DNA of 64,000 nucleotides. It comes from Pseudonocardia sp. HH130629-09 (lineage in GTDB: Bacteria; Actinomycetota; Actinomycetes; Mycobacteriales; Pseudonocardiaceae). Numbering within the stretch: position 1 is the stretch's first letter; each line of letters opens with the position of its first letter. Positions 16,190 through 20,359 of this stretch are shown piece by piece. The notes beneath the pieces were generated by a model. The model searched no databases. It saw nothing but the letters and a program-made list of their open reading frames with translations, and was not told the origin of the DNA. A program made the translations under genes and the position numbers. The DNA lies in NCBI RefSeq assembly GCF_001294645.1, contig NZ_CP011868.1, forward strand, positions 5,580,001 to 5,644,000. The letters run 5' to 3'.

Positions 16190-17842
16190 ATGCCGAGCAC
16201 GACCGCCCTCACCGGAATCCCTGCCAGCCCCGGCCGCGCCGGCGGCCGCGTCGCCGAGCCGCCGGGCGAGCCGGCCGCCGGTCCCGCCCCGGCCGACGCC
16301 GCCGCCGAGGCCGCGCGGATCGCACCGGCCGTCGAGCTGGTCTCGCAGCGCCTGACCGCACGCGCCGCGACCGTCACCGGCGACGCGAAGGATGTGCTCG
16401 AGGCGACCGTGTCGATGGTCGGGGACCCCACGCTGCTGGAGAACGCGGAGAATCTGGTGACCGGGCAGGGCCGGCCCGCCGCGCGTGCGGTGTGGGAGGC
16501 GGCGAACGCCTTCGCCGAGATGCTGTCGTCGATGGGCGGCTACATGGCCGAGCGCGCCCGCGACATCCACGACGTGCGGGACCGCATCGTCGCCGAGCTG
16601 CTGGGGCTGCCCGCACCGGGCGTGGCCGACCTGGACGCGCCCGCCGTGCTCGTCGCGACCGACCTGGCCCCGGCCGACACCGCCGGGCTGAAGCCGGGAG
16701 TCGCGCTCGCCCTGGTCACCGAGCAGGGCGGCCCGACCAGCCACACCGCGATCCTCGCGCGCTCGCTGGGGATCCCCGCGGTCGTCGGCTGCGCGGGCGC
16801 GGCCGGGATCGCCGAGGGCGCCGCACTGACCGTCGACGGCGGGACCGGTGAGGTCGTCGAGGTCGCCACCCTGGACGAGGCGACCGCGTTCGCCGCCGCC
16901 GCCTCGGTCACCGCCGAGTGGGACGGCGTCGGCCGCACCGCCGACGGCCTGGTCGTGCCGGTCCTGGCCAACGTCGGCGACGGCCCCGGTGCGGTGAAGG
17001 CCGCGGACGCGCGGGCCGAGGGCGTCGGTCTGTTCCGCACCGAGCTCGCGTTCCTCTCCGCGGCCGACGAGCCGACCGAGGCCGCCCAGCGCGAGGTCTA
17101 CACCGCGGTGCTGTCCGCGTTCGCCGGCAGGCCGGTCACCGCCCGCACCCTCGACGCCGGCGCGGACAAGCCGCTGCCGTTCCTGTCGCTCGACGGCGAG
17201 CCCAACCCCGCCCTCGGCGTGCGTGGTCTCCGGATCGCCCGCGTCCCCGGCAACGGCGACGGCGTGCTGGATCGCCAGCTCGCCGCGCTCGCCGCCGCGG
17301 CGAAGGAGACCGACGTCGAGCTCAAGGTGATGGCACCGATGGTCGCCACCGCCGAGGAGGCGCGCTGGTTCGTGCAGCGCTGCCGGGCGCACGGGATCAC
17401 CCAGGCCGGCGTGATGATCGAGATCCCGGCCGCGGTGCTCACCGCCGACGAGATCATGGCCGAGGTCGACTTCGTCTCGGTCGGCACCAACGACCTGGCT
17501 CAGTACCTGTTCGCCGCGGACCGCCAGTCCGGTCCGGTGGCCGCGCTCAACGACCCGTGGCAGCCGGCGCTGCTGCGGCTGATCGGGCTGCTCGGCGAGG
17601 CCTCGGCGCGCACCGGCACCCCGGTCGGGGTGTGCGGCGAGGCCGCGGCCGACCCGGGACTCGCCGCGGTGCTGGTGGGGCTCGGCGTCGCGAGCCTGTC
17701 GATGGGCTCGGGGGCGCTCGCCGCGGTCGGGGCGACCCTGGCCGGGCTGACGGTGGAGCAGTGCCGGGAGCGGGCCAGGGCGGCCTGCGCCGCGGCCGAC
17801 CCGATCGCGGCCCGCCGGGCCGTCGCCGCCCTCGACGGCTGA
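16190..17842 (+). CDS. ptsI: PTS enzyme I (PEP-protein phosphotransferase)
   Basis: A 550-residue enzyme I that takes phosphate from PEP and passes it to HPr. The phospho-His185 is in QGGPTSHTAILARSLG; the PEP-binding C-terminal half has GVGLFRTEL, the DAGADKPLPFL stretch, MIEIPAA, SVGTNDLAQY and the active-site Cys in GVCGEAAADP. The start at 16190 is set by GGGAG seven bases upstream; the longer frame to 15326 runs through fruR and is not coding. It is slightly shorter at the N-terminus than the E. coli protein. It is divergent from fruR. Confidence 0.95.
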   Translation: MPSTTALTGIPASPGRAGGRVAEPPGEPAAGPAPADAAAEAARIAPAVELVSQRLTARAATVTGDAKDVLEATVSMVGDPTLLENAENLVTGQGRPAARAVWEAANAFAEMLSSMGGYMAERARDIHDVRDRIVAELLGLPAPGVADLDAPAVLVATDLAPADTAGLKPGVALALVTEQGGPTSHTAILARSLGIPAVVGCAGAAGIAEGAALTVDGGTGEVVEVATLDEATAFAAAASVTAEWDGVGRTADGLVVPVLANVGDGPGAVKAADARAEGVGLFRTELAFLSAADEPTEAAQREVYTAVLSAFAGRPVTARTLDAGADKPLPFLSLDGEPNPALGVRGLRIARVPGNGDGVLDRQLAALAAAAKETDVELKVMAPMVATAEEARWFVQRCRAHGITQAGVMIEIPAAVLTADEIMAEVDFVSVGTNDLAQYLFAADRQSGPVAALNDPWQPALLRLIGLLGEASARTGTPVGVCGEAAADPGLAAVLVGLGVASLSMGSGALAAVGATLAGLTVEQCRERARAACAAADPIAARRAVAALDG

Positions 17843-17849
17843 GGCCTCC

Positions 17850-17881
17850 GTTCGCCCTGGGCGGAGCTGCCCAGGGCAGAA
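17850..17881. promoter_or_regulatory. Tandem PopR-type operators upstream of the clpP pair
   Basis: Two adjacent palindromes share a GCC-N3-GGC core: 17850-17865 (GTTCGCCCTGGGCGGA) and 17865-17881 (AGCTGCCCAGGGCAGAA). The second matches the PopR box I recall from Streptomyces lividans, TTCTGCC-N3-GGCAGAA, at 12 of 14 defined positions. They end 40 bp before the first clpP start. GCCCTGGGC/GCCCAGGGC can also pair as one 9-bp hairpin, so a role as ptsI terminator is possible too. A related palindrome precedes the XRE gene at 19482-19498. Confidence 0.6.
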
Positions 17882-17921
17882 CCGGGCGCGGACCGGGCCG
17901 TCCCCGGGCCACGGTGGGGTC

Positions 17922-18539
17922 ATGAGCGACTCACCACGCAGTCCCCGCTTCGACGACCGGGCCCGCCGCGACCTCTACGACCAGCGGGTCGTCGTGCTCG
18001 ACGGCCCCCTCGACGACGACAACGGCACCCTGCTCGCCACCCAGGTCGTGGCACTGGCCGCCCGCGACCCGGATGCCGACATCGCCTTCTGGATCCACTC
18101 GCCCGGCGGGTCGGTGCCGGCGATGCTGGCGCTGCGGGACCTGTTCCGGCTGGTGCCCTGCGACGTGTCGACGCTCGTGCTCGGCATCGCCTACAGCGCC
18201 GGGCAGTTCCTGCTCTCGGCGGGCACGCCGGGCAAGCGGCGCGCGCTGCCGCACTCGCGGGTGCTGATGCACCAGGGCTCGTCGGGGATCGGCGGGACCG
18301 CCGTCGACATCGAGCTGCAGGCCGACGACCTGCGCCACACCCGGGACACGGTGCTCGGCCTGATCGCCCAGGACACCGGGCAGCCGGTCGACCGGATCTT
18401 CACCGACTCGCTGCACGACCGCTGGTACTCGGCGACCGAGGCACTCGACTACGGCTTCGTCGACGCCGTCGTGGACTCCTTCGACCAGGTGGTGCCGCGC
18501 CGCGGTGCGGTCCCGACCGGCTTCGGCGTGGGGCGGTGA
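17922..18539 (+). CDS. clpP: ATP-dependent Clp protease proteolytic subunit (ClpP3-like)
   Basis: A 205-residue ClpP-family serine peptidase. Triad by position: Ser92 in GIAYSAGQFL, His117 in RVLMHQGS and Asp166 in LHDRWYS; the oxyanion loop HSPGGSV is standard. The nucleophile context (AYSA) differs from the usual AASM. No clpX or trigger-factor gene is adjacent, which separates this pair from the housekeeping clpP1P2-clpX locus. With the next gene it should form a mixed heptamer-on-heptamer barrel needing a ClpX or ClpC partner. It is coupled to the second clpP by a GTGA overlap. Confidence 0.9.
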   Translation: MSDSPRSPRFDDRARRDLYDQRVVVLDGPLDDDNGTLLATQVVALAARDPDADIAFWIHSPGGSVPAMLALRDLFRLVPCDVSTLVLGIAYSAGQFLLSAGTPGKRRALPHSRVLMHQGSSGIGGTAVDIELQADDLRHTRDTVLGLIAQDTGQPVDRIFTDSLHDRWYSATEALDYGFVDAVVDSFDQVVPRRGAVPTGFGVGR

Positions 18540-19156
18540 CGGCGATGAGCACCTACACGATCCCGAACGTCATCGCCCGCACCCCGAGCGGCGAGCGGGT
18601 CCTCGACGTCTATTCCCACCTGCTCACCGAGCGTGTCGTCTACCTGGGCACCGAGATCGAGGCGGGCGTCGCGAACGCGCTGATCGCCCAGCTGCTGTTC
18701 CTCGAGGCCGACGACCCCGACCGCGAGGTGCAGCTCTACGTCAACTGCGGGGGCGGGGACCCCAGCGCGATGCTCGGCATCTACGACACGCTGCGCCACG
18801 TCCGCTGCCCGGTCGCGACGACGTGCGTCGGCCAGGCCGTGTCGGTGGGTGCGGTGCTGCTCGCCGCCGGGACCGAGGGCCGCCGGGGCGCGTTGCCGCA
18901 CGCCCGGGTCGTGCTGCACCAGCCCGCGGCGCAGGGCCGCGGGTCCATCCCGGACCTCATCCTGCAGGCCGACGAGCTGGTCCGGATCCGCGCCGACATC
19001 GAGGAGATCCTGGCCCGCCACACCGGGCAGACCGTGGAACGGCTGCGTGCCGACACCGACCACGACCGGGTGTTCACCGCGGCCGCGGCGCGCGACTACG
19101 GCCTGCTCGACACGGTGCTCGAGCCGCAGCCGCCACGGACCCGGGAACGCCGGTGA
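18536..19156 (+). CDS. clpP: ATP-dependent Clp protease proteolytic subunit (ClpP4-like)
   Basis: A 206-residue ClpP paralogue. The triad is Ser103 in GQAVSVGAVLLAAG, His128 in RVVLHQPA and Asp177 in DHDRVFTA. The loop that is usually N-S-P-G-G-S reads N-C-G-G-G-D here, so the glycines are kept but Ser, Pro and Ser are replaced. The N-terminus STYTIPNVIARTPSGER resembles Streptomyces ClpP4 as I recall it. The GTG at 18536 overlaps the first clpP stop; the ATG at 18545 is an alternative start. The XRE regulator ends four bases after it on the opposite strand. Confidence 0.88.
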   Translation: MTAMSTYTIPNVIARTPSGERVLDVYSHLLTERVVYLGTEIEAGVANALIAQLLFLEADDPDREVQLYVNCGGGDPSAMLGIYDTLRHVRCPVATTCVGQAVSVGAVLLAAGTEGRRGALPHARVVLHQPAAQGRGSIPDLILQADELVRIRADIEEILARHTGQTVERLRADTDHDRVFTAAAARDYGLLDTVLEPQPPRTRERR

Positions 19157-19159
19157 GGG

Positions 19160-19441
19160 TCAGGCGGCGAGGGCGTAGGCGCGCTGCGGGCCGCGGGGTC
19201 GCGGCGCGGCCGCCAGACCGTCGGCGACGCCGCGGGTCAGCCCGGCCAGGTCGGTCCCGAGCGCCCCGGCGACCGCGGCGATCATCTCGCTGGAGGGCTC
19301 CTTGCGGCCCCGCTCCACCTCCGAGAGGTACTGCGGTGACACCCCGGCGCGCCCGGCCGTCGCGTGCAGGGTCTCGCCGCGGACGTGCCGGCGTCGTCGC
19401 AGCTCGCGGCCGAGTGCGTGCCGCCAGAGGGGTTCGCTCAT
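19160..19441 (-). CDS. popR: XRE-family regulator with ssrA-like C-terminus (PopR/ClgR type)
   Basis: A 93-residue helix-turn-helix protein. The HTH_3 domain covers about residues 12-67 with SPQYLSEVERGRKEPSSEMI, the sequence style of ClgR and PopR, activators of clp genes in actinobacteria. The last five residues are YALAA, the same as the end of the bacterial ssrA tag, and should make the protein a Clp substrate. In S. lividans, PopR activates clpP3P4 and is destroyed by Clp through its terminal alanines. Here the gene is convergent with the clpP pair, four bases from it. The palindrome at 19482-19498, 41 bp upstream of the start, suggests autoregulation. Confidence 0.8.
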   Translation of the reverse strand: MSEPLWRHALGRELRRRRHVRGETLHATAGRAGVSPQYLSEVERGRKEPSSEMIAAVAGALGTDLAGLTRGVADGLAAAPRPRGPQRAYALAA

Positions 19442-19481
19442 GGGGGCACGGTAGGACCGGACGGTCCCCGTCGTCCCCGGT

Positions 19482-19498
19482 TTCCGCCCACAGCGGAA
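19482..19498. promoter_or_regulatory. PopR/ClgR-type operator upstream of the XRE gene
   Basis: TTCCGC and GCGGAA are perfect inverted repeats with a 5-base spacer, 41 bp upstream of the XRE start codon. The layout TTCYGC-N5-GCRGAA is that of the PopR box and resembles the tandem sites at 17850-17881 before the clpP pair. It lies in the 72-bp spacer before the 3' end of the hydrolase gene and most likely controls the regulator's own promoter. Confidence 0.5.
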
Positions 19499-19513
19499 CC
19501 CGGGGACGGGCGG

Positions 19514-20359
19514 TCAGGCCTTCAGGAAGTCGAGCAGGGCGGCGTTGAACTCCTCGGGGTGGGTGGCGTTGAGGCCGTGCGGGCCACCCTCGATCAGCAC
19601 GAGCTGCGCGCCCTTGATCGACTCGTGGGAGCGCTTGCCGGACACCTCGAACGGGACGATCGCGTCGGCGTCGCCGTGGATGACCAGGGTCGGGATGCCG
19701 GCGTCGGAGACCTTCTGCACGTCGCCGCGGAAGTCGGTACGCCCGAACGCGGCGATGCAGTCCAGGGTGCCCTTCGGCGACGCGAACTCGGCGATCGTGC
19801 GGTGGTAGACCCGGCTCGGCTCGCTGATCAGGTCGGTGCGGTCACCCGCGGCGAAGAAGTTCGTGGTGAACCCGTCCAGGAAGGCGATCCGGTCGCCGGT
19901 CACACCGCCCTGGAACTGCTCGATGGTGGCGTCGTCGAGGCCGCCGTCGGGGTTGTCGTCGGACTTGTACAGGTACGGCGGGACGGCCGCGGCCAGCACG
20001 GCGCGGGCGACCCGGTCGGTGCCGTGCTTCGCGATGTAGCGGACGACCTCGCCGCCGCCCATCGAGAACCCGACGAGGGTGGCCTCGCGCAGGTCGAGGT
20101 GCACGAGCAGGGCGTGCAGGTCGTCGGCGAAGGTGTCGTAGTCGTAGCCGTCCCAGGGTTGCGAGGACTGCCCGAAGCCGCGACGGTCGTAGGTGACGAC
20201 CCGATGGCCGGCCTCGACCAGTGCCGGGACCTGCTTCTCCCAGGAGCGGCCGGAGAGCGGCCAGCCGTGGATCAGCACGACGGGCGCACCGGACCCCTGG
20301 TCGGTGTAGTGCAGCTCGAGCGGGCTGCCACTCTCGGTGCCGATGCTGAGCTGGGGCAT
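19514..20359 (-). CDS. Alpha/beta hydrolase (non-heme chloroperoxidase/arylesterase type)
   Basis: A 281-residue alpha/beta hydrolase. Triad: Ser99 in GFSMGGG, Asp232 in HGDADAIVP and His261 in GGPHGLN. The oxyanion-hole region is LIHGWPLSGRSWEKQ, with YDRRGFGQSSQPWDGYDYDTFADDL cut by the usual family spacing; these features place it among cofactor-free haloperoxidase/arylesterase proteins. It probably cleaves small esters; the substrate is unknown. No signal peptide is present. It is a single gene between the XRE regulator and the ArsR gene on the same strand. Confidence 0.88.
   Translation of the reverse strand: MPQLSIGTESGSPLELHYTDQGSGAPVVLIHGWPLSGRSWEKQVPALVEAGHRVVTYDRRGFGQSSQPWDGYDYDTFADDLHALLVHLDLREATLVGFSMGGGEVVRYIAKHGTDRVARAVLAAAVPPYLYKSDDNPDGGLDDATIEQFQGGVTGDRIAFLDGFTTNFFAAGDRTDLISEPSRVYHRTIAEFASPKGTLDCIAAFGRTDFRGDVQKVSDAGIPTLVIHGDADAIVPFEVSGKRSHESIKGAQLVLIEGGPHGLNATHPEEFNAALLDFLKA

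Follow-up and report, generated by a model that had tools for sequence, protein, structure and literature searches.

The closest known relatives of the locus analysed here are PopR with clpP3 clpP4 and ClgR with clpP1P2. According to excerpts from two studies, PopR of Streptomyces is degraded by ClpP1P2 with ClpX, in vitro by ClpXP1P2, and mutants without clpP1P2 express ClpP3P4, termed non-isofunctional, since PopR there escapes degradation; the same excerpts describe ADEP-resistant S. lividans mutants that survive through loss of clpP1 and expression of ClpP3P4 (PMC9765437, PMC12607617). As given in extracts of a review, the S. lividans PopR operator reads TCTGCC-3N-GGCGAATCTGCC-3N-GGCAGA, the ClgR box is GTTCGC-5N-GCG, and terminal AA or VA residues act as degrons in the PopR/ClgR regulator family (PMC9775585). 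ClgR, which accompanies clpP1P2 in Streptomyces and mycobacteria, has an HTH and a box related to those of the regulator analysed here, and a C-terminal degron.

Within the window, by which we mean the whole stretch of 64,000 nucleotides of Pseudonocardia sp. HH130629-09 DNA that was analysed, lies a gene set that is, as judged from its sequence, of this known kind, although its clade is not that of the Streptomyces type. A clpP3-type gene (17922-18539, plus strand; PF00574 CLP_protease, E 4.1e-50) and a clpP4-type gene (18545-19156, plus strand; E 3.1e-61) are met tail to tail by a gene on the minus strand (19160-19441; HTH_31, E 1.7e-12) for a PopR-type XRE regulator of 93 residues with the end QRAYALAA. 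Both subunits score above the PF00574 cut-off and carry the Ser, His and Asp catalytic motifs, read by eye against ClpP1 of the same genome, and the pair thus has the marks of ClpP peptidases. The set is flanked on one side by a gene for a PTS enzyme I-type protein, a call that rests at 337 bits slightly below the model cut-off of 342, and on the other by an alpha/beta hydrolase gene that is oriented like the regulator gene and runs toward the box upstream of it; among the neighbour genes checked, clpX is absent from both flanks. A clpP pair without clpX, facing a convergent 93-residue XRE regulator, is present just as the original prediction described it. The genome holds five CLP_protease matches, including another adjacent pair at C1:3782380-3783605 that could fill the ClpP1P2 role here.

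Which of the two known regulators is the nearer one? The window regulator reaches 60.3 bits with the curated ClgR model NF041677, 110 bits short of its cut-off of 170, and when 16 ClgR and 20 PopR-type regulators are placed in one tree (91 columns), one branch (100/99) splits the two sets and leaves the window on the PopR side; model score and tree side together rule out that the regulator is ClgR itself. The question, which had been put forward as a check, is thus answered in favour of PopR: on these data the regulator is grouped with those that belong to clpP3P4 loci and is set off from ClgR. Compared by sequence with solved structures, however, it has its two top matches in ClgR (3f51 and 5woq). 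The same genome also has a ClgR at C1:3818761 with the end VASAA, a label taken from its position in the regulator tree and its match strength. A second and longer branch (100/100) separates the window's clade, hereafter type 2, from the Streptomyces-like PopRs, type 1, which are placed between type 2 and ClgR. Because the tree has no outgroup and a strong branch cuts off the window's clade, a single clade of all PopR types does not follow, and because the branch between the two PopR types is long, every transfer from Streptomyces is uncertain.

The proteases give a similar picture of a deep second clade, the window ClpP3 being 46-55% identical to its counterparts in type-1 loci. In a ClpP tree of 21 rows, which holds the two window proteins and 19 of 30 loci since only plus-strand matches entered and 11 loci as well as the genome's own L001 and L002 were dropped, the window ClpP3 joins the Streptomyces-like ClpP3 (SH-aLRT 97, flagged as a long branch) and the window ClpP4 joins the Streptomyces-like ClpP4 (93, not starred). 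One genome, G330 (L331, L338, L344, L354), has three clpP pairs, the third at C210:51464-52623; one of them is of the window type and two group with ClpP1 and ClpP2.

Upstream of clpP3, the tandem palindromes GTTCGCCCTGGGCGGAGCTGCCCAGGGCAGAAC (17850-17882) had been proposed as binding sites of the regulator. They are present, with the correction that the first is imperfect: the distal one (17850-17866, plus strand) is GTTCGC-N5-GCGGAG, its left half being GTTCGC and its right half GCGGAG, and the proximal one (17865-17881, plus strand) is AGCTGC-N5-GCAGAA. Taken with the operator as excerpted from the review, the two have the layout, the 15-bp register and the spacing of the S. lividans PopR operator, from which they differ by 4 mismatches; as far as the published extracts go, the window and S. 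lividans loci are also alike in convergence, in the terminal AA and in standing on the PopR side of the split from ClgR. The sites differ in their placement: in the window the proximal one starts 57 nt and the distal one 72 nt before the clpP3 ATG, compared with 123-208 nt to the aligned clpP3 start in the listed loci of the Streptomyces-like family f20. In its left half the distal palindrome is identical to the published ClgR half-site. A ClgR-type half occurs in this first site in both window-genus loci counted and in some other loci of the window's family, f1, and on the opposite side of the site in 11 of 19 type-1 loci; cross-control of the operator by ClgR is conceivable from these motifs.

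A third palindrome, the 17-bp box TTCCGCCCACAGCGGAA (TTCCGC-N5-GCGGAA; 19482-19498, minus strand), starts 57 nt before the regulator ATG. It had been reported as a palindrome before the regulator start, and it is indeed perfect, closer to consensus than either clpP site, and extended into a longer stem (19472-19508), an inverted repeat with 16-nt arms that are 94% complementary. Taken by itself the window gives no evident excess of such boxes (3 matches at up to 2 mismatches, 1.45 expected), and the weight of the argument rests on related loci. The comparison covers 180 loci, namely the window, 79 loci from the best 80 of 557 that were confirmed in a capped scan (L126, the same record as L229, was excluded as a duplicate) and 100 chosen from the best matches, so that the set leans to closer relatives. 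Some loci come from the same genome (L103 and L255, and L128 and L262, are identical rows), which leaves 178 distinct regulators, and two loci with doubtful regulator calls, L184 and L123, were retained in the counts.

Upstream sequence was sufficient in 177 distinct loci, among them the window, and the 200 bp ahead of each regulator were searched for the best match to TTCYGC-N5-GCRGAA. This match has no mismatch in 85 loci, one in 37 and two in 29, compared with 0, 0 and 6 in dinucleotide shuffles and 3, 2 and 9 in stretches taken at random from these loci. Thus, 122/177 loci have a box with no more than one mismatch, against 0/177 shuffled and 5/177 random stretches; at up to 3 mismatches over the whole 200 bp, 47/177 shuffles also reach a match. 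The original prediction was to fall if neither tail nor boxes were conserved among close relatives; conservation was found, although the exact YALAA end recurs in only 30 of the 180 loci.

The two promoters of the cassette appear to be built alike. In the window, a -10-like hexamer lies 6 nt ahead of each ATG and exactly 45 nt past the start of the box, CACGGT (17910-17915, plus strand) before clpP3 and TACCGT (19448-19453, minus strand) before the regulator, a position that suggests leaderless mRNAs; a scan of 17800-19600 for sigma-70-like sites returned none. Box and hexamer were also counted across type-2 loci, in position windows fixed after the box positions were known and without shuffles for those windows: the regulator promoter has a box (up to 2 mismatches, 40-75 nt before the start codon) in 133/158 loci, the window among them, followed in 124 of the 133 by a hexamer [TC]A...T at 44-46 nt from the box start, while 25/158 have no match by the same rule; the clpP promoter has a box (up to 3 mismatches, -62 to -45) in 150/157, with the hexamer at 44-46 nt in 122 of the 150 against a background of 1.2% per position in clpP upstream regions. 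By this motif evidence, both type-2 promoters are of one geometry: the box comes first, a -10-like hexamer follows at 44-46 nt as counted from where the box starts, and the ATG comes last. Type-1 loci differ: their aligned regulator box is degenerate (such as TTCCACCGAGGGCGCAA), 14 of 21 pass a 3-mismatch rule, and the distance from box to hexamer is 49-50 nt in 11 of these 14 and 44-46 nt in none, compared with the perfect box and 45 nt of the window.

Could these palindromes simply be the terminators of the upstream genes, the hydrolase and the PTS enzyme I-type gene, instead of operators? Both regions fold well (-35.3 and -32.2 kcal/mol, z -3.4), the hydrolase gene runs toward the box, sharing its direction with the regulator, 11 of the 133 loci have a longer stem around the box (8%, compared with 1.1% of random positions), and in one locus, L238, a T-run follows the stem. 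However, the standard rule finds no terminator-like site in 17800-19600, where no T-run accompanies the stem, the longer stem is missing in 122/133 loci and a run of four T in 132/133, and in most loci the position of the box is tied to the ATG and to the hexamer, all of which makes it extremely improbable that the palindromes are terminators and not operators. Given the excess of stems over random positions, the box may in some loci serve as a terminator as well as an operator, and the hairpin at the window box could end the hydrolase gene.

With the palindromes read as operators, their geometry also bears on what the regulator would do there. Autorepression is frequent among XRE regulators, and the box at 19482, being the nearest to consensus, could fill first; the regulator might then activate the clpP genes as proposed and yet repress its own gene, which would make the loop a homeostatic one. 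Against this speaks that in type-2 loci the box stands 44-46 nt from the hexamer at both promoters, that is, upstream of the -35 region and not over the -10 or the start, and we hold autorepression to be unlikely. Because the type-2 regulator promoter shares the geometry of the clpP promoter, whose Streptomyces counterpart is activated by PopR, activation is predicted at both; we infer from these motifs that the regulator activates clpP3P4 and that its own control is a positive autoregulation. The parts of the literature that were searched, with the 2000 and 2002 PopR papers and the 2004 ClgR paper outside their scope, contain no statement on PopR autoregulation, which may be in print.

Convergence and the box before the regulator had both been taken as additions to the Streptomyces scheme, a view that did not survive the comparison. 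The clpP pair and the regulator converge in 176 of the 180 loci, which marks convergence as the ordinary arrangement, and in 14 of the 16 loci of family f20, termed Streptomyces-like on operator grounds as the published PopR operator is exact in five of them, all five convergent. In the remaining four of the 180 (L172, L173, L229 and L256) the ClpP pair was not found, L229 lying at a contig end. The regulator box is likewise shared, in its degenerate form by most of the aligned f20 loci and in the form counted above by most type-2 loci.

How would the regulator be removed? The codons for its last six residues, AYALAA (19163-19180, minus strand), form a probable Clp degron, and the tmRNA tag of the same genome, ADNSRTAQSAYALAA, ends in AYALAA as the regulator does; the noted identity with the end of the ssrA tag therefore extends to the genome's own tag. 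Across the 180 loci the regulator ends in AA in 171, in LAA in 119, in ALAA in 76 and in YALAA in 30, and LMAA is the commonest end in the other loci of family f1 (42/66). The tail is not a general copy of the host tag: by reading, at least five final residues match in only 5 of 30 genomes, four of the window's genus (G000, G139, G527 and G499) and one other (G305), and the close match between tail and host tag is local. A terminal-alanine degron is plausible for this regulator from its end. At G167:C80:86-1109 (L229, L307), the tmRNA gene is only a few hundred bases away from a PopR-type regulator, which is located at the end of its contig.

The original prediction had joined tail and operators into a self-contained circuit: the regulator would switch on a ClpP pair by which it is itself degraded, so that a negative loop is closed. 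This differs from the published circuit as far as the excerpts describe it, since there ClpP1P2 destroys PopR and clpP3P4 is a backup that is made when ClpP1P2 is missing. Although the terminal AA or VA degrons excerpted for the regulator family and the adjacency of pair and regulator would suit a self-contained loop, the removal of Streptomyces PopR by ClpP1P2, the appearance of ClpP3P4 in clpP1P2 deletion mutants and the non-isofunctional character of ClpP3P4, all from the same partial sources, argue against it, as does the other clpP pair of this genome, and we rate it as very unlikely.

We consider it probable that the locus is instead a backup-protease switch of the PopR/ClpP3P4 type with a self-activating regulator. 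In such a switch, housekeeping ClpP1P2 with its ATPase would normally remove the regulator through its AYALAA end and thereby keep the pair silent. Were ClpP1P2 to fail or to become saturated, the regulator would accumulate, bind upstream of the -35 region at both promoters and activate clpP3P4 together with its own gene. The spare ClpP3P4 peptidase would be served by Clp ATPases encoded elsewhere, and the positive loop would stop once ClpP1P2 recovers.

In its full form TTCYGCY-N3-RGCRGAA the candidate operator has a single mismatch-free match in the whole 6.3 Mb genome, at this locus, which speaks against a chance palindrome, and the suggested genome-wide scan for TTCYGC-N5-GCRGAA brought up 3 places compared with 2 for a reversed control, a ratio that shows no regulon-wide enrichment. 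A regulon beyond this locus was also rejected when one mismatch was allowed (24 places, 21 in the reversed control), and 17 of the 24 places are the same 17 bases, lying in L362 within a transposase-like ORF. At G000:C1:1381089-1383099 (L361-L363), 276-residue transposase-like ORFs (by eye, L362) stand head to tail about 997 bp apart, and the 17 bases associated with them recur at 17 places over both contigs.

In the window's genus, 5 of 62 genomes have a PopR-type regulator, 56 match at ClgR strength only and one has no match. In a combined ClpP3 and ClpP4 tree of 91 of the 177 usable loci, limited to three per genus beside the five of the window's genus and the window itself, four of the genus's five loci, that of the window being one of the four, form a set (94, not starred) to which Streptosporangiaceae, a Cellulosimicrobium and another family also belong, and the remaining locus lies inside the main clade of the window's family; the family's other rows do not form one clade, five rows from two genera standing apart. 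A constraint that joined the five rows of the genus to the main rows of the family was rejected (p-AU 0.0013) in a test that used a quick tree and a constrained group named after inspection of the tree. The cassette of the window's genus was probably not inherited with the main copies of the family, as far as these trees can tell. Homologous DNA begins at 17849 in the comparison with G527 and at 17854 in that with G499, in both cases beside the first palindrome; it stops at 19436, at the regulator start, for G499 and continues downstream to 23299 for G527. Such edges would fit a cassette that has been retained or transferred as a whole. Plasmid records matching the regulator are 2 among 72,556: one of Embleya sp. 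NBC_00888, over regulator residues 3-76 (76%), and one of Prescottella equi (NZ_CP121764.1, 297324-297449), over residues 29-70 (76%).

What would such a switch mean for its hosts? A speculative extension, which we regard as possible but doubtful, is that the cassette is a widespread positive-feedback latch triggered by Clp load. If this were true, not just the loss of ClpP1P2 but also a surge of Clp substrates, ssrA-tagged ones or others, would spare the regulator, which in this genus bears the ssrA end of its host. The spared regulator would turn on both its own gene and a second peptidase core from two promoters of like geometry, and through its copied tag it would directly report on trans-translation and on Clp capacity. 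PopR/ClpP3P4 has been described from Streptomyces, and related cassettes with a conserved regulator box are now found in several other families, Microbacteriaceae, Nocardiaceae, Thermomonosporaceae, Streptosporangiaceae and Glycomycetaceae among them. The question is whether the backup protease is a graded response or a self-locking switch.
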